Positions 22,388-28,184 of a stretch of DNA of 64,000 nucleotides are shown here, piece after piece. The notes under the pieces were generated by a model that did not search any database, was not told where the DNA came from, and saw only the letters and a list, made by a program, of their open reading frames with translations. Source of the DNA: Streptantibioticus cattleyicolor NRRL 8057 = DSM 46488 (GTDB taxonomy: Bacteria > Actinomycetota > Actinomycetes > Streptomycetales > Streptomycetaceae); assembly GCF_000240165.1 (NCBI RefSeq), contig NC_017586.1:1922001-1986000 (forward strand), in the 5' to 3' direction. Every line of letters starts with the position of its first letter. The first letter of the stretch is position 1. Both the position numbers and the translations under genes were made by a program.

Positions 22388-23242
22388 TCAGCACACCAGC
22401 CGGCGGTAGCGCTCCGCCGTCCCGGCCACCACGCGCTTCCCGTCCCCGGCCCACAGCGCCGGGTTGAAGACCTCCACCTCGATGGGGCCGGTGTATCCGG
22501 CGGCGTCGACCATCTCGCGGAAGGCGCGCAGGTCCACGCAGCCGTCGCCGAGCTGTCCCCGGCCGAGCAGGACGCCCTCGGGCAACGGGGTGATCCAGTC
22601 GGCGAGTTGGAAGGCGGCGATGCGCCGTTCGGCGCCGGCCCGGGCGATCAGGTCCGGCACCCGGTCGTCCCACCACAGGTGGTAGGTGTCGACCACCACG
22701 CCCACCTGGTCGGCGGGGAAACGCTCGGCGAGGTCGAGCGCCTGGCCGAGGGTGGAGACCACGCAGCGGTCGGAGGCGTACATCGGGTGGAGCGCCTCGA
22801 CGGCCAGGCGTACGCCGTGCCGGGCGGCGTACGGGGCGAGTTCGGCGAGGGCGTCGGCGACGCGTTCGCGGGCCGCCGTCAAGTCCTTGGCACCGGCGGG
22901 CAGTCCGCCGGAGACGAGGACGAGGGTGCCGGTGCCGAGGGTGGCCGCCTCCTCCACGGCGGCCCGGTTGTCGGCGAGGGCGGCGGCCCGCTCGTCCGGG
23001 TCGACGGCGGTGAGGAAGCCGCCGCGGCACAGCGAGCTGACGGTGAGCCCGGCCGCCCGCACCGTCTCGGCGGCCCGCCGCACCCCCAACTCCCGTACCG
23101 GACCGCGCCACAGGCCCACCCCGCCGATGCCGAGCGCGGCACAGACCCGGACCAGGTCGGGTACGGACAGCTGCCGGACGGTCTCCTGGTTGATGCTGAG
23201 CCGCCCGGCGGCGGGCGGGACGGGGGCGTTGTCGGTGGTCAC
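22388..23242 (-). CDS. sugar phosphate isomerase/epimerase (TIM barrel)
   Basis: 284 residues of the xylose-isomerase-like AP endonuclease 2 family. Metal ligands are visible in LAVEALHPMY (Glu), VVDTYHLWWD (Asp, His), AAFQLADWI and EVEVFNPALW (Glu). Such proteins epimerise or isomerise keto-sugars or inosose. It is the third gene of the minus-strand operon: its GTG overlaps the stop of the DUF993 gene (GTGA). With a dehydrogenase and an aldolase-like protein ahead of it, it fits a catabolic path for a sugar, sugar acid or cyclitol. Confidence 0.88.
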   Translation of the reverse strand: MTTDNAPVPPAAGRLSINQETVRQLSVPDLVRVCAALGIGGVGLWRGPVRELGVRRAAETVRAAGLTVSSLCRGGFLTAVDPDERAAALADNRAAVEEAATLGTGTLVLVSGGLPAGAKDLTAARERVADALAELAPYAARHGVRLAVEALHPMYASDRCVVSTLGQALDLAERFPADQVGVVVDTYHLWWDDRVPDLIARAGAERRIAAFQLADWITPLPEGVLLGRGQLGDGCVDLRAFREMVDAAGYTGPIEVEVFNPALWAGDGKRVVAGTAERYRRLVC

Positions 23243-25572
23243 TGGCAGACTCCGTGGACGGAGAGGAGGGATGCCATGCGGGATGCCGCGAGTTCCGGGT
23301 CGGGGAACAGGCCGAGTCCGTCGGCGAGCCGGTAGGCACGGGCCAGATGGGGCAGGGTACGGGCCGACTGGAACCCGCCGACCATGGTGAAGTGCGACTG
23401 GTGGCCGGCGAGCCAGGCGAGCAGCACGACGCCCGTCTTGTAGTAGCGGGTGGGCGGCGCGAACAGGTGGCGGGCGAGTTCCACGGTGGGGTCGAGCCGC
23501 GCGCGGAACGCCTCGGTGTCCCCGTGGTCGAGCAGGCGCACGGCCTCGGCGGCCAGCGGGGCCAGCGGGTCGAAGACGCCGAGCAGGGCGTGGCTGAAGC
23601 CGTGGTCGTCGCCCTGGATCAGCTCGGGGTAGTGGAAGTCGTCGCCGGTGTAGCAGCGCACCCCGGGCGGCAGCCGCCTGCGCAGGGCCACTTCGCGGCC
23701 GGCGTCCAGGAGGGAGACCTTGACGCCGTCCACCGCGCCGGGGCGGGCGGCGACGACGGCGAGGAAGGTCTCGGTGGCCGCGTCGAGGTCCGTGCTGCCC
23801 CAGTAACCGGTGAGGGCGGGGTCGAACATGGGGCCCAGCCAGTGCAGGATCACCGGGCGGCGGACCTGGCGCAGCAGCCGGTCGTAGGTGTCGGCGTAGT
23901 CGTCGGGGCCGGTGGCCAGCGCGGCCAGGGCGCGGGACGCCATCAGGACCGGCTGGGCGCCGCCGGCCTCGACGAGGGCGAGCTGTTCCTCGTAGGCGGC
24001 GGTCACCTCGGCGAGGGTGGCCGGGGGGCGGGTGAGCTGGTCGGTGCCGGCGCCGGCCGCGATCCGGCCGCCGCAGGCCGCCGCCTCGGCCGCCGAGCGG
24101 CGGATCAACTCGGCCGCGGCCGGCCAGTCGAGCCCCATGCCCCGCTGCGCGGTGTCCATCGCCTCGGCCACGCCCAGCCCGTGCGCCCACAGATGCCGCC
24201 GGAACGCCAGCGTCGCCTCCCAGTCCACCGCCGCCGGGGCCTCCGCCGCGGCCCGCCACGGATCCGCCACCACATGCGCCGCCGCGAACACCACCCTCCC
24301 CCGCGCCTCCGCCCCGCCCACCCACCCCACCCCGTCCCCCCGAGGCACATACCCCCGCAGCCCCCCACCCTCCTCCGGAAGCCGAAGCACCCGACAACGG
24401 GCCGCGCCGCCCGACCCGCCGGACGGGGTGGGGTGGGCTCCGCCCGGGGTGGGGTTGGCGCCCGGCGCGGGCGGCGGACCGCCGGGTGGGGCGGGTCGGC
24501 TGGCGCCCGGCGGAGTCGGCTGGCCGCCGCCGGGCGGGACGGGTCGGCCGGCGCCGGGCATGACGAGGTGGGCTGCGCCGGAAGCGGGACCAGCACCCGG
24601 CTCGGACGGGGTACCGGCGGGCGCGGCCGAAAGGGAGCTGGCGGGGCGGCCGTCGGCGAACGTGACAGCGTGGGCCCCGGCCGAAGCAGGGCAAGCGCCC
24701 GACGCGGGCGGCGGACCGTCAGGTGCGAGCGCCCCGCCGACCGGCACGCCGGGAACAGCGCCGGAGGCGGCCGGAGCAGAACCGGGAAGGGTGACGCCGG
24801 GCGTGGAAGGGTGGGCTCCGCCCGAGACGGGACGAGCGCCCGGCACGGCCGACCCGCCAACGGCCACCGCACACCCGCTCCGGGACACGGCCAACCCGCC
24901 GCCCGGCGGGATCGGATGGCCGCCGACCGCGACGGGACGGCTGCGGTCAGGCACCCCGGGGCGGGCCTCGCCCGAAGCGGGGCAGGCACGCGCCCCGGGC
25001 GGCGAACCGGCGGGCACGGCCAACCCGCCGCCAGGCGCCCCCTGGCGGGCCCCGCCCGAAGCGAGGCGGGACCCCGGCTCGGGCACGGAACCGCCGGACG
25101 GAGTCCGCCCGTCGGCCGACGCGGACGGAACGCCGTCCCGCACCGAGCACCCGTCCCCGGACGCGGACGGACCGTCGCCGGGCGGGGTGGGGTGCGACGC
25201 GGCCGAGATGGGCGGGGTAGCGGCGGCGACGCCGTCCCGCACCGAACACCCGTCCAGGGACGCGGACGGCCCGTCGCCGGGCGGAGCGGGGTGCGATCCG
25301 GCCGACGCGGGCGGGGTAACGGCGGCGACGCCGTCCCGCACCGAACACCCGTCCCCGGACGCAGCCGGCCCGTCGCCGGGCGGAGCGGGGTGCGATCCGG
25401 CCGACGCGGGCGGGGTAACGGCGGCGACGCCGTCCCGCACCGAACACCCGTCCCCGGACGCAGCCGGACCGTCGCCGGGCGGAGCGGGGTGCGATCCGGC
25501 CGACGCGGGCGGGGTAACGGCGGCGATGCTATCCCGCACCCGGATTCCGTCCTCCGGCGGAGTCGGTGTCAT
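23239..25572 (-). CDS. DUF993 dihydrodipicolinate-synthase-like protein with repeat expansion
   Basis: 777 residues, about twice the normal family length. The C-terminal 386 residues (from RVLRLPEEGG near 24400) are a DUF993 aldolase-like TIM barrel; WLGPMFDPALTGYWG, DGVKVSLLD and CYTGDDFHYPELI are typical. The first 390 or so residues are Pro/Gly/Ala/Ser-rich. They start with four 33-residue repeats of the type RDGVAAVTPPASAGSHPAPP and continue into degenerate HP-PPG-like repeats. ATG 25572 overlaps the upstream stop as ATGA, so the extension is probably translated, though internal starts are possible. It lies between the Gfo/Idh dehydrogenase and the isomerase in a sugar or cyclitol catabolic operon. 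Confidence 0.78.
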   Translation of the reverse strand: MTPTPPEDGIRVRDSIAAVTPPASAGSHPAPPGDGPAASGDGCSVRDGVAAVTPPASAGSHPAPPGDGPAASGDGCSVRDGVAAVTPPASAGSHPAPPGDGPSASLDGCSVRDGVAAATPPISAASHPTPPGDGPSASGDGCSVRDGVPSASADGRTPSGGSVPEPGSRLASGGARQGAPGGGLAVPAGSPPGARACPASGEARPGVPDRSRPVAVGGHPIPPGGGLAVSRSGCAVAVGGSAVPGARPVSGGAHPSTPGVTLPGSAPAASGAVPGVPVGGALAPDGPPPASGACPASAGAHAVTFADGRPASSLSAAPAGTPSEPGAGPASGAAHLVMPGAGRPVPPGGGQPTPPGASRPAPPGGPPPAPGANPTPGGAHPTPSGGSGGAARCRVLRLPEEGGGLRGYVPRGDGVGWVGGAEARGRVVFAAAHVVADPWRAAAEAPAAVDWEATLAFRRHLWAHGLGVAEAMDTAQRGMGLDWPAAAELIRRSAAEAAACGGRIAAGAGTDQLTRPPATLAEVTAAYEEQLALVEAGGAQPVLMASRALAALATGPDDYADTYDRLLRQVRRPVILHWLGPMFDPALTGYWGSTDLDAATETFLAVVAARPGAVDGVKVSLLDAGREVALRRRLPPGVRCYTGDDFHYPELIQGDDHGFSHALLGVFDPLAPLAAEAVRLLDHGDTEAFRARLDPTVELARHLFAPPTRYYKTGVVLLAWLAGHQSHFTMVGGFQSARTLPHLARAYRLADGLGLFPDPELAASRMASLLSVHGVCQ
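25130..25537. repeat. 99-bp tandem repeat (about four units) inside the DUF993 gene
   Basis: The anchor ACCGA(A/G)CACCCGTCC starts at 25142, 25241, 25340 and 25439, exactly 99 bp apart, with a degenerate fifth start near 25538. Units are contiguous with no spacers. 99 bp is 33 codons, so the reading frame is preserved. The two units at the right are nearly identical, which points to recent expansion. Confidence 0.92.
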
Positions 25573-26720
25573 CGGGGGAGCTCCGGGACGGGGAGGCGGC
25601 GGGCTTGGGTGGAGGATTCCAGGGCCAGGGCGGCGAGGTGGACGCCGCGGGCGCCGGCGAGGAGGTCCCAGGGCCAGGGGTCGCCGAGGGTGACGTGGCG
25701 GAGGAAGAGTTCCCACTGGGCCTTGAAGCCGTTGTCCCAGACGCCGTTGTCGGGGACGTCCTGCCAGTGGTCGCGGAAGCGTTCGGTGGCCGGCTGGTCG
25801 GGGTTCCAGACCGGCCGGGGGGTGGCGGCGCGGTGCTGGAAGCGGCAGGAGCGCAGTCCGGCGACGGCCGAGCCGTGGGTGCCGTCCACCTGGAACTCCA
25901 CGAGTTCGTCGCGGTGGACCCGGACCGCCCAGGAGGAGTTGATCTGGGCCACGATGCCGCCGGCCAGCTCGAAGATGCCGTAGACCGCGTCGTCGGCGGT
26001 GGCCGGGTAGGGCTTGCCGGCCTCGTCCCAGCGCCGTGGGATGTGCGTGGTGGCCAGCGCCTGCACGGAGGTGACCGGGCCGAAGAGTTCGTGGAGGACG
26101 TACTCCCAGTGCGGGAGCATGTCGAGGGTGATCCCGCCGCCGTCCTCGGCGCGGTAGTTCCACGAGGGGCGTTGCGCCTGCTGCCAGTCGCCCTCGAAGA
26201 CCCAGTAGCCGAACTCGCCGCGCACGGAGAGGACCCGGCCGAAGAAGCCGCCGTCGACGAGGCGTTTGAGCTTGCGCAGCCCCGGCAGGAAGAGCTTGTC
26301 CTGGACGACGCCGTTGCGTACCCCGGCCTGTTGGGCGAGGCGGGCCAGGCGCACCGCGTCCGCCACTCCGGGGGCGGTCGGCTTCTCGCAGTAGACGTGT
26401 TTGCCGGCGGCGATCGCCCGTTCCACCGCGGCCACCCGCGCGGAGGTGACCTGCGCGTCGAAGTAGATCTCCACGGCGGGGTCGGCGAGGACGGCGTCGA
26501 GGTCGGTGGTCCAGTGGTCGAGGCCGTGCTGGGCGGCGATCTCCTCCAGCGCGAGGCCGCGGCGGCCGACGAGTACCGGTTCGGGCCACAGCGTGGTGCC
26601 GTCGCCCAGGTCGAGGCCGCCCTGCTCGCGCAGCGCCAGCACGGAACGGACCAGGTGCTGCCGGTACCCCATCCGCCCGGTCACCCCGTTCATCGCGATG
26701 CGCACCGTCCTGCGTGTCAC
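25569..26720 (-). CDS. Gfo/Idh/MocA family oxidoreductase
   Basis: 383 residues. The N-terminal part is a Rossmann NAD(P) domain with AMNGVTGRMGYRQH in place of the usual GxGxxG. The active-site EKP motif lies in HVYCEKPTAPG near residue 128, and the C-terminal substrate domain includes GGGITLDMLPHWEYV with the catalytic His. Such enzymes oxidise sugars, inositols or sugar acids. It is the first gene of the three-gene operon, divergent from the LacI gene with a LacI-type operator between them. The GTG start has GGGAGG upstream. Confidence 0.9.
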   Translation of the reverse strand: MTRRTVRIAMNGVTGRMGYRQHLVRSVLALREQGGLDLGDGTTLWPEPVLVGRRGLALEEIAAQHGLDHWTTDLDAVLADPAVEIYFDAQVTSARVAAVERAIAAGKHVYCEKPTAPGVADAVRLARLAQQAGVRNGVVQDKLFLPGLRKLKRLVDGGFFGRVLSVRGEFGYWVFEGDWQQAQRPSWNYRAEDGGGITLDMLPHWEYVLHELFGPVTSVQALATTHIPRRWDEAGKPYPATADDAVYGIFELAGGIVAQINSSWAVRVHRDELVEFQVDGTHGSAVAGLRSCRFQHRAATPRPVWNPDQPATERFRDHWQDVPDNGVWDNGFKAQWELFLRHVTLGDPWPWDLLAGARGVHLAALALESSTQARRLPVPELPR

Positions 26721-26757
26721 GCGGACCTCCCGGTCTCGGCGATGGGGAAAGGCGGTA

Positions 26758-26957: not shown

Positions 26958-28184
26958 ATGACGGTGACACTGGCCGACGTGGCGGCGCGCGCGGGGGTCT
27001 CGGCCGCGACCGTCTCGCGCGTCCTGAACGGCAACTACCCGGTGGCCGACAGCACCCGCGAACGCGTGCTGCGCGCCGTCGACGAGCTGGAGTACGTGGT
27101 CAACGGGCCCGCCAGGGCGCTCGCGGCGGCCACCTCCGACCTGGTCGGGGTGCTCGTCAACGACATCGCCGACCCGTTCTTCGGCATCCTGGCCGGGGCC
27201 GCCCAGACCGAGATCGCCCGCGGGGCGGGTCCCTCCGGCACCCCGGCCCCGGCCGGAAGCGGAACCCCGTCCGGGCACCCCGGCGGCAAGCTCGCGGTGG
27301 TCTGCAACACCGGCGGATCGCCCGCGGCCGAGCTGACCTACCTCACCCTGCTGCAACGTCAGCGCGCCGCCGGCGTCATCCTGACCGGTGGCGCCGTCGA
27401 GGGCACCGAACACACCGCGGCCGTGGCGGACCGGCTCGCCCGGCTCGCCGCACAGGGCACCCGGATCGTGCTGTGCGGCCGGCCCGGGGTGGAAGCGGAA
27501 TCGATACCCAGGGCCCGGCCGGAGGAGGCGCCGACCCGGGGGGCCGGGGTCTTCGGGGCGTCCGGCGGGGCCCCCGCGTCCTGGCCCGGCGCCCGGCGTC
27601 CCCGTACCCCCGCGCCGCGCGGCGGGGAGCCGGTGCCGGGGCCGGTCACGCTGGCGTTCGACAACCGGGGCGGCGCCTACGCGCTCACCGCTCATCTGCT
27701 GGCGCTGGGCCACCGCCGCATCGGGTACGCGGCCGGACCGGTGGACCGGACCACCACCCGGGAGCGGCTGGAGGGCCACCGGGCGGCGCTGGCCGCGCAC
27801 GGGGTGGACCCGGCCGGCCGGCCCACGGCGCACGGCCCGTACGAGCGCGGTTACGGCTGCCGGGCCGCCGTCGAACTCCTCGCCCGCGACCCGGGGTTGA
27901 CCGCGGTGGTGGCCGCCAACGACACCATCGCGCTCGGCGTCTGCGCGGCGTTGCGCGAGCGCGGGCTGCGGGTCCCCGAGGACGTCTCGGTGGCCGGCTT
28001 CGACGACCTGCCGTTCAGCGTGGACGCCGCCCCGGCGCTGACCACCGTCCGGCTGCCGCTGCACGAGGCCGGGGCGTGGGCGGGCCGGCTGGTGATGGGC
28101 GCCGAGGCGCCGCCGCCGGGTGACCGGGCGCTGGTGGAGGCCGCCTTGACGGTCCGGGCGTCGACGGCCCCACCACGGGGGTGA
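26958..28184 (+). CDS. LacI-family regulator with low-complexity insertions
   Basis: 408 residues against a usual 330-350. The helix-turn-helix VTLADVAARAGVSAATVSRVLNG is at residues 3-25, with the hinge RALAAATS. The periplasmic-binding-like effector domain follows. Two Pro/Gly/Ala-rich inserts (about residues 89-110 and 176-228) account for the extra length. They probably lie in surface loops and resemble the composition of the expanded region in the nearby DUF993 gene. The GGAGG at 26943-26947 sets the ATG. It should repress the divergent sugar operon through the operator at 26758-26769, and the isomerase gene downstream. Confidence 0.88.
   Translation: MTVTLADVAARAGVSAATVSRVLNGNYPVADSTRERVLRAVDELEYVVNGPARALAAATSDLVGVLVNDIADPFFGILAGAAQTEIARGAGPSGTPAPAGSGTPSGHPGGKLAVVCNTGGSPAAELTYLTLLQRQRAAGVILTGGAVEGTEHTAAVADRLARLAAQGTRIVLCGRPGVEAESIPRARPEEAPTRGAGVFGASGGAPASWPGARRPRTPAPRGGEPVPGPVTLAFDNRGGAYALTAHLLALGHRRIGYAAGPVDRTTTRERLEGHRAALAAHGVDPAGRPTAHGPYERGYGCRAAVELLARDPGLTAVVAANDTIALGVCAALRERGLRVPEDVSVAGFDDLPFSVDAAPALTTVRLPLHEAGAWAGRLVMGAEAPPPGDRALVEAALTVRASTAPPRG

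Follow-up and report, generated by a model that had tools for sequence, protein, structure and literature searches.

Results

The DUF993 gene and its neighbours

Within the window, the 64,000-nucleotide stretch of Streptantibioticus cattleyicolor DNA analysed here, a minus-strand gene of the DUF993 family runs open from an ATG at 25572 to a stop at 23239 and carries a long repetitive stretch ahead of its enzyme domain. The features of the locus are as follows.

23239..25572, minus strand: whole DUF993 gene, 777 aa, about 76 kDa (computed)
23248..24384, minus strand: DUF993 catalytic-type TIM barrel (PF06187, E 1.2e-172; PDB 4dnh, E 7.8e-126)
24346..24390, minus strand: family N-terminal beta-hairpin, VLRLPEEGGGLRGYV, strands 396-399 and 405-408; near the enzyme start of most relatives
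24391..25572, minus strand: N-terminal low-complexity extension, residues 1-394 (disorder prediction; 3n repeat offsets)
25130..25540, minus strand: 99-bp (33-aa) tandem array, 4.2 copies (TRF score 682; unit alignment)
24391..25129, minus strand: degenerate older copies of the array motif at spacings of 20-50 aa (repeat comparison)
24480..24590, minus strand: weak 24-bp tandem array within the degenerate part (TRF score 95)
25569..25572, minus strand: ATGA start/stop overlap, the DUF993 start lying inside the oxidoreductase stop
25581..25584, minus strand: GGAG, Shine-Dalgarno-like, 8 nt before ATG 25572 and inside the oxidoreductase 3' end
25569..26723, minus strand: Gfo/Idh/MocA-type oxidoreductase, upstream operon partner (Pfam GFO_IDH_MocA domains); adjoins DUF993 in relatives
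22388..23242, minus strand: putative sugar-isomerase-like gene, downstream, so named from its sequence; GTGA overlap with the DUF993 stop; adjoins in most relatives' loci

The DUF993 domain behind the extension is full length and intact as judged by the Pfam profile, residues 397-775 matching positions 2-382 of 382 with 574.5 bits against a curated cut-off of 24. The closest solved structure, 4dnh, shows 55% identity and a TM-score of 0.92 (normalised to 4dnh), and structures of dihydrodipicolinate synthase (DHDPS) rank next, from E 4.6e-9. K618 is among the columns invariant over the 45 rows of a structure alignment of DUF993 (44 of 80 relatives' loci plus the window's protein), so the core residues of the family are intact; by analogy with DHDPS, this lysine may be the catalytic one. 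Literature searches with DUF993 or 4DNH gave no paper, and among the titles listed for broader topic queries none was about the enzyme.

At each end the gene shares a four-base start/stop overlap with its neighbour. The C-terminus of the oxidoreductase reads PELPR (window 25569-25574), where most relatives displayed have PEL(S/T)L, and this change turns the usual GTG start of DUF993 into ATG. Beyond it, the divergent LacI-type regulator (window 26958-28184, plus strand) contains two Gly/Pro/Ala-rich in-frame stretches and measures 406 aa from its helix-turn-helix start, compared with a median of 354 (56-387) in 20 relatives' proteins, some of them cut by locus ends.

The extension and its repeats

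As the first-pass annotation had claimed, repeats have about doubled the length of the enzyme, 394 of the 777 residues being extension. Its description of four nearly identical 99-bp units that then degrade is likewise borne out: TRF reports 93% matches and 0% indels for the array, the four full units differ pairwise at 4-14 of 99 bases, and the diverged copies follow. At a threshold of 12, the extension holds 65 self-similar DNA segments, far more than the 7.0 averaged over 20 codon shuffles. With tandem units of 3n bases (99 bp x 4.2) inside an open frame, the array is a candidate coding minisatellite. Its TRF score is the second-highest in the ~1.26 Mb surveyed, the top score belonging to a repeat kinase, HAMP-type by its sequence, in one relative (G015). 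The array there (L140, 5117-7825) is coding, with 9.8 copies of 276 bp in a hybrid histidine kinase of 1788 aa with HAMP repeats, and seems ordinary. We found the extension repeat nowhere else in its own genome, where the best match outside the locus, among 40 of 272 candidates scored, was 81% over 53 bases (E 4e-4).

Residues 1-393 consist of P (19.8%), G (19.6%), A (18.6%) and S (11.5%) to about 70%; the extension of about 35 kDa has a net charge of about -3 and is devoid of Lys, Tyr and Trp. An AlphaFold model of the whole protein (mean pLDDT 57, pTM 0.49, 45 sequences) leaves residues 1-390 devoid of helix and strand, with 10-residue block pLDDT means of 26-44. By its biased composition the extension is a low-complexity region, and by the model it is predicted to be disordered, which agrees with the disordered tail proposed earlier. 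In the same model the hairpin strands 396-399 and 405-408 reach block pLDDT means of 78 and 89.

Relatives and the ancestral start

Of 394 genomes sampled across the family, 318 encode a relative of the window's protein. Among the best matches with a name, Streptomyces predominates, joined by Actinacidiphila and Kitasatospora. We collected 136 relatives' loci (L002-L110, L183-L209), which were reduced to 121 distinct ones by dropping three without a partner match, three without an exact anchor, one non-adjacent and eight duplicates. An in-frame, open RTGA start at the overlap is found in 112 of the 121 (111 GTG, one ATG; the window has ATG), and 106 of the 121 carry GGAG in the 20 nt ahead of this position. 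From this start to the HVVADP anchor of the domain there are 17-50 codons (mode 39) in 109 loci and 90, 114 and 125 in three others, while the window has 432, which confirms the roughly 390 extra residues first noted before the aldolase-like domain. The extension is therefore not conserved among orthologues, lengthening being absent from those 109 loci. In the remaining nine loci the enzyme's frame does not match the overlap, and the eight that we inspected need a new start near the domain; such a start is thus workable in the family.

Behind the extension, the hairpin keeps 7 of the 9 letters of the family consensus LPxxxGxxRxYxPRxEP. Since decay would otherwise be expected, translation should begin before the hairpin. 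The GTG at the hairpin itself (24390) has no Shine-Dalgarno site (-2.7, compared with a random median of -3.0). Four relatives, however, have their start only about 17 codons ahead of the anchor, which leaves no room for the hairpin.

In a tree of 50 rows (49 hand-chosen loci and the window's protein), the window's protein clusters with L020, L021/L023, L018, L019, L024 and L047 with support of 100/99, the inner order not being settled. Four of these rows are without an extension (L018, L019, L024, L047) and represent three different sequences, L024 and L047 being identical. The top-scoring relative, L020 (= G016), carries some 85 additional codons in frame behind the same overlap (GTGA), with small repeats of its own. 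L021 and L023 have instead a linker lengthened in frame after the hairpin; aligned with each other, the two linkers show one gap of 45 nt and one of 27 nt. Lengthening in this clade has thus occurred at two sites and is in frame in all four members that show it. The extensions of L020 and the window may have a common origin: they share a site and similar first residues but differ in their repeats; one gain with later loss in the clade is possible.

Evidence on translation

That the frame is kept throughout had been offered as an argument for translation. The frame is indeed open over 777 aa, but the argument is weak, because three of the six frames through the extension are stop-free and the degenerate half (243 codons), when base-shuffled, is stop-free in 28% of trials. 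Long open frames through DUF993 also occur in unextended relatives with the ordinary overlap (G031, 806 codons; G005, 889; G008, 793), and we rejected the open frame as proof of translation.

The spacing of the repeats can be assessed with no frame assumed. At threshold 12, all 65 offsets between self-similar segments (63 distinct) are divisible by 3; at lower thresholds the counts are 80/81 (11), 102/104 (10) and 148/168 (9), the exceptions being what short chance matches would produce. The 20 codon shuffles gave means of 4.8, 1.4 and 0.8 segments for remainders 0, 1 and 2. Because the segments are nested, we estimate about 7 independent spacings, for a chance of (1/3)^7. The test can fail, since in repeat-rich gaps outside called genes, our negative control, fewer than 60% of offsets were 3n in 4/7 gaps of G008, 2/9 of the own genome and 0/6 of G015. 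Among lengthened relatives it is mixed at threshold 12 (L020 3/4, L021 8/12, L023 2/2). The 3n spacing and the retained hairpin are better signs of translation than the open frame or the overlap.

The ATGA overlap, said to fix the start, does mark the most likely one, though with less force than stated. At ATG 25572 the Shine-Dalgarno duplex energy is -5.8, beside a median of -6.1 at 46 called-gene starts and, at random positions, a median of -3.0 with the stronger quartile at -5.9; the site is thus only moderate. Stronger Shine-Dalgarno-like runs precede GTG codons 12, 45, 78, 144 and 236 of the extension, GTGs behind the hairpin (409, 415, 418, 427, 428) and CTG 405, so that translation may begin further along the extension or may yield a short product as well. 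Also speaking against translation, the three codon positions of the extension have a flat G+C content (0.80/0.80/0.83), compared with 0.80/0.54/0.94 in the domain. GC3 falls below 0.87, the lowest value of 17 PGAS-rich called-gene windows of the own genome, in 4 of 7 extension blocks of 60 codons; in G008, 3 of 12 such called-gene windows have a GC3 of 0.84 or less.

Selection on the tail and its wider setting

We looked for amino-acid selection in the tail through the mismatches between diverged copies by codon position and detected none: positions 1, 2 and 3 mismatch equally, at 89/395, 98/390 and 99/396 (0.225, 0.251 and 0.250). Together with the flat G+C content by codon position, we read this as repeat growth free of selection on codons or residues. 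Only the reading frame appears constrained, and the sequence drifts.

A peculiarity of the own genome was considered and is not supported, low-GC3/high-GC2 stretches in called genes numbering 13.9 per 100 kb coding over 400 kb of it (14.3 in the window) compared with 18.3 in G015 and 16.0 in G008. As the gene caller picks starts by GC3, a survey of called genes misses stretches of the extension's type, and repeat-rich gaps were therefore surveyed too (464 kb of the own genome, 400 kb each of G015 and G008). Gaps with at least 90% 3n offsets make up 5/9 in the own genome, the window's included, 3/6 in G015 and 3/7 in G008, no strong difference. With in-frame repeat-rich stretches in both relatives sampled, the window's tail belongs to a known kind, of which it is an extreme example.

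Of the tandem arrays that lie outside called genes, 18/19 have a 3n period in the own genome (G000), several of these 18 clustering in few loci, compared with 26/48 in G008 and 18/39 in G015. Elsewhere in the own genome (L133, 2145-5171; C2, about 3.602-3.605 Mb), what looks like a sigma-factor/zinc-finger-like frame is followed by long Gly-Ala-rich, collagen-like repeats, in which 231/231 self-similar offsets are multiples of 3.

Discussion

In this study, we relate an unusually long N-terminal extension of a DUF993 enzyme to the operon that it sits in. In our judgement the extension is probably a translated, tolerated, disordered N-terminal tail that grew by repeats. Its mechanism would start from the position of the DUF993 start codon inside the stop of the upstream gene (RTGA), with the Shine-Dalgarno-like GGAG also within that gene. 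With the start locked there, we infer that inserts between start codon and domain get translated; only in-frame, stop-free inserts would then keep the enzyme, while duplications that shift the frame or bring in a stop codon would lose it. G+C-rich DNA at this site has gone through repeated duplication, and its copies have stayed at 3n spacing, the older units having diverged and the 99-bp array being the latest. Such 3n growth would survive where the fold tolerates a tail, and the outcome would be an almost uncharged Pro/Gly/Ala/Ser tail of about 390 residues, predicted to be coil, on an intact enzyme.

The main competitor, which we consider unlikely, is an untranslated or barely translated intergenic minisatellite, with the enzyme starting internally near its domain and the frame a by-product of about 81% G+C. 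The flat codon-position composition of the extension and its three open frames would fit this, as would the Shine-Dalgarno-like runs before codons 405 (CTG), 409, 415 and 418, the nine of 121 loci that are not in the overlap's frame, with a domain-near start required in the eight inspected, and the four loci that begin at about the end of the hairpin, 17 codons before the anchor. Against it stand the 65/65 offsets in multiples of 3 at threshold 12, the RTGA overlap, which is kept, and the lengthened members of the same clade, which are in frame too; further, a start at 409 or later would delete both hairpin strands, which keep the consensus. That the assembly is wrong at the repeat and has miscounted its copies is very improbable. 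Neighbouring units do differ by as few as 4 of 99 bases, and tandem repeats are reported as a cause of assembly errors (PMC6868369), but no two units are exact copies, mis-assembly of the array cannot account for the diverged half (>700 nt), and the genome is assembled in 2 contigs at 100% completeness.

If the tail is translated, it might also be useful, the coil acting as a spacer, solubility bristle, scaffold or condensate driver whose length is tuned by copy number. A near-uncharged coil that is predicted to be disordered, and several rounds of extension while the enzyme core stayed intact, are compatible with this; nevertheless, we regard it as improbable. Selection on the sequence was not detected, lengthening is absent in 109 of 121 loci and in the four same-clade rows (three different sequences), the relatives' expansions differ in composition and, for L021/L023, in position, and the other two sampled genomes likewise contain repeat-rich stretches that are in frame. 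The first-pass annotation had proposed a role in assembly or crowding, or else tolerated drift with unstable copy number. We found nothing that points to assembly, crowding or regulation. Tolerated drift fits, given the equal divergence by codon position, the flat composition and the relatives' other sequence and, in two of them, other site; with no sign of selection on its sequence, the tail looks tolerated and not useful.

For the tolerated tail, we tentatively suggest a more general reading, namely that RTGA-locked genes may act as frame-filtered traps for repeat growth, in which random G+C-rich inserts are forced into translation and survive only in 3n steps. Should this hold, operonic enzymes of high-G+C actinomycetes could evolve long disordered tails neutrally, and repeats would give rise to new protein sequence that might in time become a functional tail. 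The locus offers a clear case of frame constraint separating from sequence constraint, with many in-frame duplications and a drifting sequence and, if translated, shows that a conserved enzyme can bear a neutral tail equal to its own length. It also has a practical side, as open frames in 80% G+C DNA prove little alone, while the way in which diverged repeats are spaced offers a test of translation.

The finding is real and explained mainly by known processes. As in intragenic tandem repeats and coding minisatellites, the window has an array of 3n period in an open frame together with diverged older copies. Surface proteins are common carriers of intragenic tandem repeats, whereas this array sits on an enzyme-type protein. 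Compared with the DUF993 family and 4dnh, of DHDPS-like aldolase fold, the window's protein is alike in its full-length domain and operon neighbours and differs in the 394 residues before the hairpin and in the resulting distance from start to anchor. Finally, the tail resembles prokaryotic low-complexity regions (LCRs; PMC6821194) in its G/A/P/S-rich composition and terminal location. According to the title of that article, prokaryotic LCRs are highly conserved and of functional importance, and a passage reports eukaryotic metabolic proteins to be depleted in LCRs; in contrast to the LCRs described there, the window's tail is carried by a metabolic-type enzyme and is not conserved.
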